Of a stretch of DNA of 64,000 nucleotides, positions 33,687-36,342 are shown piece by piece. This DNA comes from an uncultured Pelagibacteraceae bacterium (GTDB lineage Bacteria; Pseudomonadota; Alphaproteobacteria; Pelagibacterales; Pelagibacteraceae). How positions within the stretch are numbered: position 1 is the stretch's first letter; each line of letters opens with the position of its first letter. The DNA is taken from NCBI GenBank assembly GCA_902573425.1, contig CACGJO010000003.1, forward strand, positions 1-64,000, in the 5' to 3' direction. Both the position numbers and the translations under genes were made by a program. Below the pieces are notes generated by a model. It was not told where the DNA came from, did no database searches, and was given only the letters and a program-made list of their open reading frames with translations.

Positions 33687-35369
33687 ATGAAATTATCAGA
33701 AATAAATAGCTTAGTTGAGTTATACTTTAAAAAATCAGAAGAAATTGAAGGAAAAAAACCATTCTTAAAATGGCTGAAACCTGACAAACAAACCTACAAT
33801 TGGGAAGATATTACAAATAGAATTTTTAAACTTTCTCACAAAATAAAATCTTTAATAAATGATGGAGACAGATGTCTAATACTTTCAGAGAATAGACCTT
33901 ACTGGCTAGTTTCTGATATTGCTATAATGAATGCCGGCGGAATATCAGTTCCAATATTCACAACTTATTCTGAAAACGATTATAAATATATTTTAAACGA
34001 TTGTAAGCCTTCTTTAATTATTGTTTCAAATCAAAATCAATTTAAAAAAATAAAAAATTTTATTAATCCCGAAGTAAAAAAAATTATTTCTTTTGAAAAA
34101 ATTGATACCCAAAGCTTATTAATATCAGATATACTAAATGAAAAGGACTTCCAAAAAAAAATAAATAAAAATTTAAAACGAAATACACCAGCCTGTATAA
34201 TCTATACATCCGGTACTTCAGGCAATCCAAAAGGCGTAATTTTAAGCCATGGAGGTATCTTGGCCAACTGCGAAGGTGCTTACGATTTACTGAAACCATT
34301 GGTAAATAAACGAGACCCAGTATTTTTAACTTGGTTACCTCTTTCACATTCTTATGAGCATGCTGTTCAGTTTATACAAATATTACTCGGGGCCAAAGTT
34401 TTCTATGCAGAAAGCTTAGAAAAGCTTTTATCAAATATGTCCATTGCAAAACCCACTATAATGACAGCAGTTCCGAGATTTTATCAAAATTTATACAATA
34501 AAATTTCTGTAAATTTAAATAAACAATCTGGGCTTAAAAAAGCGCTAATTAATAAAACGATTAAATTAGGAAAAAAAACATTAAATAATGAGAAATTAAT
34601 ATTTTATGAAAAACTAACAAATTTTTTATGTCAAATCTTAGTGAGAAAAAAAATTCAAAAACAGTTTGGGGGAAATTTACAGGCTTTTGTTTCAGGAGGT
34701 GGTGCACTTGATAAAAATGTTGGTGAATTTTTAAATGCGGTCGGTTTGCCAACTTTACAAGGATATGGATTAACAGAAACATCGCCAGTTGTAAGCTGTA
34801 ATTTGCCGGGTCATATTAAAGTTGAAACTGTAGGACCTCCTTTTAAAACAAATCAAGTAAAAATAGCAGATGATGGTGAAATTTTGGTTAAAGGGGAAAA
34901 TGTTATGCTTGGATATTGGAATAAAGAAAAAGAAACAAATGAAATATTAAAAAATGGTTGGTTACATACTGGCGATATTGGAGAGATTGATTCTAATGGT
35001 TATTTGAAAATTACTGACAGAAAAAAAGATATAATTGTAAATCACGGTGGAGATAATATTTCCCCCAGTAAAATAGAAAATACTATTTGTAATGAAGAAA
35101 AAATAAAACAATGTTTAGTTTATGGAGATAAAAAAAATTATCTTGTTGCTCTAATTGTTGTAGACAAAAAAGATAAAAATGATTCAACTATAAGAAGTAT
35201 TATCGAAAATAATAATAAAAAGTTATCAATTATAGAAAAAATTAAAAAGTTTAAATTAATCGAGGAAGAATTTACAATTGAAAACGGTTTAATGACTCCA
35301 ACTCTTAAGTTAAAAAGAAAAAAAATAATTGAAAAGTATAAACAAGATTTAGAAAATCTTTATTCTTAA
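33687..35369 (+). CDS. AMP-dependent acyl-CoA synthetase/ligase (long-chain, FAA1/FadD-like)
   Basis: IIYTSGTSGNPKGVILSHGG; QGYGLTETSPVVSCN; GWLHTGDIGEIDSNGYLKITDRKKDI. Confidence 0.95.
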   Translation: MKLSEINSLVELYFKKSEEIEGKKPFLKWLKPDKQTYNWEDITNRIFKLSHKIKSLINDGDRCLILSENRPYWLVSDIAIMNAGGISVPIFTTYSENDYKYILNDCKPSLIIVSNQNQFKKIKNFINPEVKKIISFEKIDTQSLLISDILNEKDFQKKINKNLKRNTPACIIYTSGTSGNPKGVILSHGGILANCEGAYDLLKPLVNKRDPVFLTWLPLSHSYEHAVQFIQILLGAKVFYAESLEKLLSNMSIAKPTIMTAVPRFYQNLYNKISVNLNKQSGLKKALINKTIKLGKKTLNNEKLIFYEKLTNFLCQILVRKKIQKQFGGNLQAFVSGGGALDKNVGEFLNAVGLPTLQGYGLTETSPVVSCNLPGHIKVETVGPPFKTNQVKIADDGEILVKGENVMLGYWNKEKETNEILKNGWLHTGDIGEIDSNGYLKITDRKKDIIVNHGGDNISPSKIENTICNEEKIKQCLVYGDKKNYLVALIVVDKKDKNDSTIRSIIENNNKKLSIIEKIKKFKLIEEEFTIENGLMTPTLKLKRKKIIEKYKQDLENLYS

Positions 35370-35577
35370 TTTTAATTTTTTAAATCATAGAAGCAATTAA
35401 ATAACCGTTGATTTTACTAGCTTTTATTAAGTTATTTTAAATAACAAAAAAAAAAATATTTTATTTTATTTTTCAAAAAAAACATTAACTAGTTTATGTT
35501 TGACATCTATTCAAAAAAACTTAAAGTTAAATCAATAAACGAATCACTTCGATTTGTTTAAAAAAAGGGAGATAACG

Positions 35578-35646
35578 ATGGCTAAAAGACGTAAAAAAAA
35601 GAAAAAAGCTAAAAAGAAGACTAAAAAAAGAAGAAGAAGAAGATAA
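35578..35646 (+). CDS. 22-aa polycationic peptide; not in supplied ORF track
   Basis: SD-like GGGAG at 35567-35571, then ATG; MAKRRKKKKKAKKKTKKRRRRR*; own downstream terminator. Confidence 0.7.
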   Translation: MAKRRKKKKKAKKKTKKRRRRR

Positions 35647-35660
35647 ATAGTTTTCTCAAA

Positions 35661-35702
35661 AAACGCTCTTTCCAAATCTCACGGAAAGAGCGTTTTTTTT
35701 TT
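35661..35702. terminator. Bidirectional intrinsic terminator
   Basis: AAACGCTCTTTCC (35661-35673) / GGAAAGAGCGTTT (35683-35695) with T run on the plus strand and TTTTTT on the minus strand. Confidence 0.92.
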
Positions 35703-36342
35703 ACTGCATTTCTTGTGTTTTTTCTTCTCTACCTAAGGCTTTGTCCATTCTTTTTTTGACATCCTCCTGTGAAATTTTTAAAACTACTTCAAATTCACTT
35801 TCTAGTCTGTCATACGCTTTTTCGAACAATAGTCTCTCACTGTAAGATTGATCTGCAATAGTGTTTGTATTTTTGTTTAGATCTCGTACTACTTCAGCTA
35901 ATTCATAAATTTTACCTGAATTAATTTTTTGCTCATATTCTTGCGCTCTCCTGCTCCACATTGTTCTTTTTACTTTTGGTTTAGTTTTAAGAATAGAAAT
36001 ACATTTGTTTATTTGGTGCGTTGAACAAATTGGTCTCAAAAGGGATTGTTTATTTATTGGCAATTGTAGAGTTAATTTATCTTTAAATATTTCAATTTTG
36101 TAATTCTGACTTTCAATTCCACCTATTAGTGCCTTTTCAACACTAACAATTTTACCCACTCCGTCTTTAGGATAAACCACAAAATCATTAATATTGTAAA
36201 TTTTCTTTTCTGTAGGTTGCCTTTTGATTTTTTTTATTTCTACCTTTTGGTCCGCAGAAGAAGACTTAACTGTTAAACTTACTTTTTTCTCTATTTTCTT
36301 TTTTACGGTTTTAATCTTTTTTTTCTTCTTTTTTCTACCCAT
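35701..36342 (-). CDS. CarD family transcriptional regulator with lysine-rich N-terminal extension (start revised from the ORF track)
   Basis: INDFVVYPKDGVGKIVSVEK CarD_TRCF N-terminus; AGGAG SD 7 nt before ATG at 36342 (MGRKKKKKKIK...); the track start at 36399 lies inside fdxA. Confidence 0.9.
   Translation of the reverse strand: MGRKKKKKKIKTVKKKIEKKVSLTVKSSSADQKVEIKKIKRQPTEKKIYNINDFVVYPKDGVGKIVSVEKALIGGIESQNYKIEIFKDKLTLQLPINKQSLLRPICSTHQINKCISILKTKPKVKRTMWSRRAQEYEQKINSGKIYELAEVVRDLNKNTNTIADQSYSERLLFEKAYDRLESEFEVVLKISQEDVKKRMDKALGREEKTQEMQ

Follow-up and report, generated by a model that had tools for sequence, protein, structure and literature searches.

Protamines, found in eukaryotic sperm, are short disordered polycations with arginine runs, and the ribosomal peptides Thx/bS22 and eL41 contain aromatic or hydrophobic docking residues. 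SAR11 bacteria, whose genomes measure ~1.3 Mb, count among Earth's most abundant bacterial groups. AlgP (Pseudomonas aeruginosa) and PhaF are histone H1-like KPAA-repeat proteins with a Lys/Ala/Pro-rich disordered basic tail; AlgP joins a 124-aa helical N-terminal domain to 154 aa of KPAA repeats, and its KPAA-repeat peptides bind DNA in vitro (PMC9239181). Chlamydial Hc2 (165–237 aa) and its Bordetella-type relatives are lysine-rich, DNA-binding proteins that differ in length through their number of repeats (PMC2848022).

Here we describe a micro-gene found in a 64,000-nucleotide stretch of DNA, hereafter the window, from an uncultured Pelagibacteraceae bacterium. Unlike AlgP, the window protein has 22 residues, nearly all Lys or Arg, and no domain. 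Among the SAR11 forms, those of a second family come close in style to AlgP and PhaF with their Lys/Ala/Pro-rich, probably disordered basic tail; the SAR11 proteins differ in size from Hc2. The likeness to protamines is one of composition, homology being untestable, and protamines are Arg-dominated and eukaryotic whereas the SAR11 peptide is Lys-dominated and bacterial. Thx/bS22 and eL41 resemble it in size and charge, but docking residues of their type are absent from it and no profile match was obtained. This gene for a 20–30-residue, almost pure Lys/Arg protein beside carD was previously uncurated: no description of it was found in the literature or family libraries searched, and the table of a 2009 structured-RNA search in Ca. 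Pelagibacter ubique HTCC1062 does not include the micro-gene spacer (PMC2704228).

A lysine/arginine micro-gene convergent with carD

The micro-gene lies between an AMP-binding (fatty-acid-CoA-ligase-like) gene (33,687–35,369, plus strand; Pfam AMP-binding) and carD (35,701–36,342, minus strand; Pfam CarD_C and CarD_TRCF_RID). Its elements, on the plus strand, begin with a −35 hexamer, TTGACA (35,500–35,505), followed after a 16-nt spacer by a weak candidate −10 element, TAAAGT (35,522–35,527). The 7-mer CGAATCA (35,540–35,546), whose expected place in the transcript is roughly +5 to +11, takes part in a predicted 5′ mRNA hairpin (35,536–35,560) with the stem CGAATC:GATTTG and an A-U extension. 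A Shine-Dalgarno (SD) sequence, GGGAG (35,567–35,571), whose spacing is near-constant among orthologues, precedes the ORF (35,578–35,646), which runs from the ATG at 35,578 to a TAA at 35,644–35,646 and whose 22 codons, 11 for Lys and 7 for Arg, encode MAKRRKKKKKAKKKTKKRRRRR. A bidirectional intrinsic terminator (35,658–35,698) is common to the micro-gene and the convergent carD. Promoter, hairpin, SD, ORF and terminator had all been proposed in a preliminary description of this DNA, and each was confirmed base for base.

Within the single sequence, these elements differ greatly in how far they depart from chance. The terminator is far from it (−22.6 kcal/mol, z = −7.2 against shuffles), whereas the 5′ hairpin alone gives z = −1.9, with 9/200 shuffles equally good, and promoter-like sites show no excess over shuffles (6 found against a shuffle mean of 10.6). 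Since promoter and small hairpin do no better than chance in one sequence, the question was settled by comparison. The preliminary description had also pointed to a 21-codon ORF at 35,496–35,561; the reading frame exists but is not a gene, being unconserved and overlapping the promoter. In same-genus relatives it meets a stop after 5 codons (L006) or another early stop (L010), or has no ATG (L005).

Conservation across the Pelagibacterales

A DNA search of 101 genomes plus fetched loci yielded 49 first loci, all of which carry an intact Lys/Arg ORF behind a GGGAG- or GGAG-type SD. The ORF, SD, TTGAC, CGAATCA hairpin and terminator (stem of 11–22 pairs in 49/49) all recur in them, and on these comparative grounds conservation lifts the whole set of elements above chance. 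A pattern scan of named genomes found an intact 20–31-aa Lys/Arg ORF in 116/116 SAR11 stretches (Pelagibacteraceae or related), while a stricter pattern, which misses variants such as ATGCC starts, matched 128/248 genomes within the order and one control. To avoid circularity, a motif-independent search anchored on CarD was added. In this survey, the micro-gene and CGAATCA were present wherever the 3′ flank of carD was complete, both in the window's family (f1) and in a second family (f2). The micro-gene is always adjacent to and convergent with carD; the AMP-binding ligase gene is its syntenic upstream neighbor in the window's family only. Genomes without the micro-gene are also missing carD; in those checked for the orthologous upstream gene, it was absent or ran off the contig end. 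Because these genomes lack the whole locus, their gaps are best ascribed to assembly, and there is no demonstrable loss. The search for Lys/Arg-rich ORFs next to carD across SAR11 genomes, proposed as a check in the preliminary description, was positive at every assembled locus of two families. The dedicated transcription unit proposed there for a basic micro-protein withstood both of the refuting conditions set with it, relatives showing no frameshift or stop and no real absence.

Each SAR11 genome with an assembled locus carries one copy; that of HTCC1062 lies at 410,512–410,601 (+) (MATKKKAKKAKKKTKKKAKKAKKAKKRKR). The complete genome read for this copy was assigned to HTCC1062 because its HU gene (791,591–791,860) abuts the hupA spacer at 791,867–792,012 tabulated for that strain (PMC2704228). 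At carD loci of ~50 alphaproteobacterial genomes from other families, the Lys/Arg micro-ORF was not found. Judged from this distribution and the coding sequence, it is near certain that the micro-gene is a real, order-wide (Pelagibacterales), protein-coding gene.

Several further pattern matches were discarded. Four non-SAR11 records (Latescibacterota, Verrucomicrobiales, Pseudorhodoplanes and Sphingomonas) contain no Lys/Arg ORF, and a phage origin was rejected, 14 viral matches being chance hits that are devoid of a comparable Lys/Arg ORF. One metagenome contig (L046, G057:C6) bears two inverted copies of the micro-gene and its neighbors, which is probably an assembly artefact.

Selection acts on the encoded residues

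Codons were counted in 106 distinct ORFs of the window's family, 2600 codons in all; as these ORFs are related, the counts are not independent events. The encoded residues are K 1371, R 662, A 452, T 62, G 20, P 18, S 10, V 3 and M 1, with no acidic, aromatic or amide residue among them. One transition converts AAA into AAG (Lys), AGA (Arg) or GAA (Glu): the first two occur 345 and 638 times, while GAA is absent (GAA/GAG, 0), and no Lys-to-Glu change was seen in the 106 ORFs. Although 2018/2600 codons (78%) lie one substitution from a stop, none has turned into one. The codon-level check called for in the preliminary description therefore came out in favor of a coding gene, Lys/Arg being kept throughout these ORFs. 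The order of Lys codons also keeps A-runs short (mean 7.2 bases, against 9.4 when Lys codons are shuffled), and A-runs are at or below expectation in 104/106 ORFs, as would be expected if slippage in transcription or translation were costly. On this evolutionary evidence, we take the micro-ORF to be translated and under strong purifying selection for a lysine/arginine/alanine polycation. A pure sRNA is ruled out by selection at the codon level.

Short and long forms of the micro-protein

The micro-protein has 20–23 residues in the window's genus, 20–58 in sister genera and 40–91 in f2. The f2 orthologues open with a short MEELKVIFAKA-like segment, after which come KKAAPKKKKKAAKRKPAKKK repeats, a style close to AlgP (PMC9239181), and their variation from 40 to 91 aa parallels that of Hc2. 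This K/A/P-rich repeat tail is present in f2 and partly in the outer genera; in the window's genus the protein is reduced to Lys/Arg with few Ala. The longer forms (31–91 aa; outer genera and f2) look like histone H1 C-terminal tails. Long forms in the sister genera and f2 have the same leader and terminator as the short forms, and the shared locus, promoter, leader motif and terminator argue for one gene, of which the short form would be a shortened relative of the 31–91-aa proteins; this homology rests on locus and leader, protein complexity being too low for a sequence test. One feature counts against the H1-tail reading: the C-terminus is rich in arginine (RRRRR), which recalls protamines or ribosomal proteins more than H1.

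Profile searches assigned no family. Pfam gave none for the 22–50-aa forms (a spurious match at E 0.5 concerned the 40-aa form only) or for the 85- and 91-aa forms, and NCBIfam none for the 22–50-aa forms, which were the only ones tried. No PDB chain matched at E up to 10. The low complexity of the proteins limits the power of these searches.

The leader and its promoter

TTGAC stands 38–42 nt before CGAATCA in 153/153 measured leaders (TTGACA in 147/153, TTGACT in 6/153). The −10 region is A/T-rich and loose, with no fixed hexamer, and TAAAGT itself is poorly conserved. CGAATCA is invariant across f1 and f2, also at loci that were reached through carD only. In the genomes checked, a single instance per genome was found of TTGAC-N30-40-CGAATCA and of the hairpin, except for one extra TTGAC match in G066, and this single copy rules out a regulon with common promoter and motif. 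Many alphaproteobacterial promoters are without a consensus −10, and CarD may be needed for their activity (PMC8407463); by analogy, the micro-gene promoter might be CarD-dependent too.

The stem CGAATC:GATTYG is found in 143/157 distinct leaders, by G-C or G-U pairs. Most of the remaining leaders, from the outer genera, instead form a neighboring stem that starts inside CGAATCA, and in these genera an upstream CTCC is the predicted pairing partner of the SD. The main stem shows only a one-sided G-C/G-U change and no compensatory two-sided changes, so the structure is supported by its retention and by the alternative stem in the outer genera. The hairpin may be an mRNA leader element with a role in stability or translation. 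No Rfam family matched above the gathering threshold in the micro-gene region.

Leaders of outer genera (L037, L040, L041, L043, L045, L046, L050, L052) and of f2 (L208, L210, L213) contain a second conserved part (CTCCAAAC...GGAG; CCTCTAACTAAACCC...GGG) whose predicted pairing would make the SD or start codon inaccessible. Its stem is CGC:GCG in G069 and CCC:GGG elsewhere, a compensatory change. Folding of this kind is compatible with translational control or autoregulation, either of which is possible.

CGAATCA also includes GAATC, a GANTC (CcrM) site (window 35,540–35,556). Genera with a perfect palindrome have two such sites near the transcription start, the second of which is lost in the window's genus, and the invariant part is longer than GANTC; a CcrM role for the motif is a lead only. 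A babIM methylase gene is among those listed for HTCC1062 in the 2009 study (PMC2704228).

A putatively disordered polycation that may bind nucleic acid

We favor, with a probability of about 0.6, the reading that the micro-protein is a disordered, H1-tail- or protamine-like polycation that binds DNA and/or RNA, with the nucleoid as the first candidate site and RNA or the ribosome as the second. The protein has no hydrophobic core and no acidic or aromatic residue, which makes electrostatic binding to nucleic acid by far the likeliest chemistry. Nucleic-acid binding, as put forward in the preliminary description, would be the natural reading of such a composition, and a function of this type appears well founded. 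The peptide would be disordered and bind the phosphates of nucleic acid through electrostatic, sequence-independent contacts, serving as an H1-tail- or protamine-like counter-ion or condensing protein on the nucleoid, RNA or the ribosome being a second possible target; the 5′ hairpin would protect the transcript or tune its translation. Composition alone cannot tell DNA from RNA as the ligand. We give DNA preference on three grounds: the longer orthologues resemble H1 tails, AlgP KPAA-repeat peptides bind DNA in vitro, and the adjoining CarD, a protein in contact with both promoter DNA and RNA polymerase, has a lysine-rich tail of its own.

This N-terminal tail spans 44–127 aa with 32–44% K+R in the SAR11 CarD proteins examined (window, L022, L023, L035, L040, L052 and L207–L213) and consists of KKKVAKKKV repeats in f2. 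A comparably long basic tail occurs in about one-fifth of the other alphaproteobacterial CarD proteins examined, most having only 10–30 residues. The lysine-rich tail of CarD, beside a micro-protein that is itself lysine-rich, is suggestive of a link, and the fixed place of the micro-gene might reflect a shared role at transcribed chromatin, a weaker step of the proposal. SAR11 synteny is high in general, however, and the adjacency to carD may thus carry no functional meaning.

Polyphosphate, the partner of AlgP, had been named among the possible ligands and is disfavored. PPK1 was detected in 1/10 SAR11 carriers and PPK2 in 0/10, while control genomes matched, so most carriers probably make no polyphosphate. 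The single PPK1 gene belongs to an f2 genome (G061:C2:217500–218030); the nine other SAR11 genomes have neither enzyme.

Alternative explanations

A lineage-specific ribosomal or ribosome-associated peptide, filling an rRNA crevice as eL41 or Thx does, would fit the size of 20–30 aa, the Lys/Arg content, the strong SD, the single copy and the order-wide presence without real losses. We nevertheless consider this unlikely, as neither Pfam nor PDB returned a match, 2600 codons encode no aromatic and almost no hydrophobic residue, and the length drifts from 20 to 91 aa, with long forms made of A/P/K repeats, unlike a docked ribosomal peptide. Membership of the Thx/bS22 type, proposed earlier by analogy of composition, is likewise unsupported, given the lack of profile matches and of aromatic or docking residues. 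Still less probable is a micro-protein that binds RNA or acts as an RNA chaperone, or a transcript serving as both sRNA and mRNA, with its leader and terminator functioning in trans. Both RNA structures are indeed conserved, and one study reports small basic proteins together with the Fur-regulated sRNA of Bacillus subtilis. Against this stand the absence of an Rfam match above the gathering score, a leader stem that changes in some genera and has no two-sided changes in its main form, selection at the codon level, and the fact that no conserved unpaired targeting segment was seen beyond CGAATCA.

The arrangement of a short Lys/Arg-rich ORF followed by a terminator is also the classical layout of an attenuating leader peptide responsive to Lys/Arg supply, or of a ribosome-stalling uORF. 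This is highly improbable here: at every locus carD, which follows immediately downstream, points toward the micro-gene, leaving no co-directional gene to attenuate, and the protein keeps its composition over a fourfold range of length. A spurious ORF in an A-rich spacer, which an AT-rich host genome with common A-runs might be expected to produce, is already refuted by order-wide conservation, zero stops, the lack of Lys-to-Glu changes and A-run avoidance.

Possible implications for the SAR11 nucleoid

Returning to the proposed disordered nucleic-acid-binding polycation, one may ask how far this reading could be extended. Tentatively, SAR11 might have reduced an H1-like chromatin protein to a 20–25-residue protamine-like peptide, perhaps the smallest dedicated bacterial nucleoid protein, that would work with the lysine-tailed CarD to compact or charge-neutralize the chromosome and to set transcription in a minimal genome, its own dose being set via the CGAATCA leader hairpin; we regard this extension as doubtful. 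The small genome, together with no demonstrable loss in two families, makes it probable that the micro-gene is of importance to the cell. Standard annotation may overlook a product so short, and tryptic proteomics may miss it as well, since with Lys or Arg at nearly every residue trypsin would cut almost everywhere. The natural series at one locus, from a 91-aa H1-like tail to a 20-aa polycation, makes the minimal sequence for nucleoid or RNA binding testable.

HU/IHF-family genes are present alongside the micro-gene in SAR11, so the peptide would add to the usual nucleoid proteins and not replace them.
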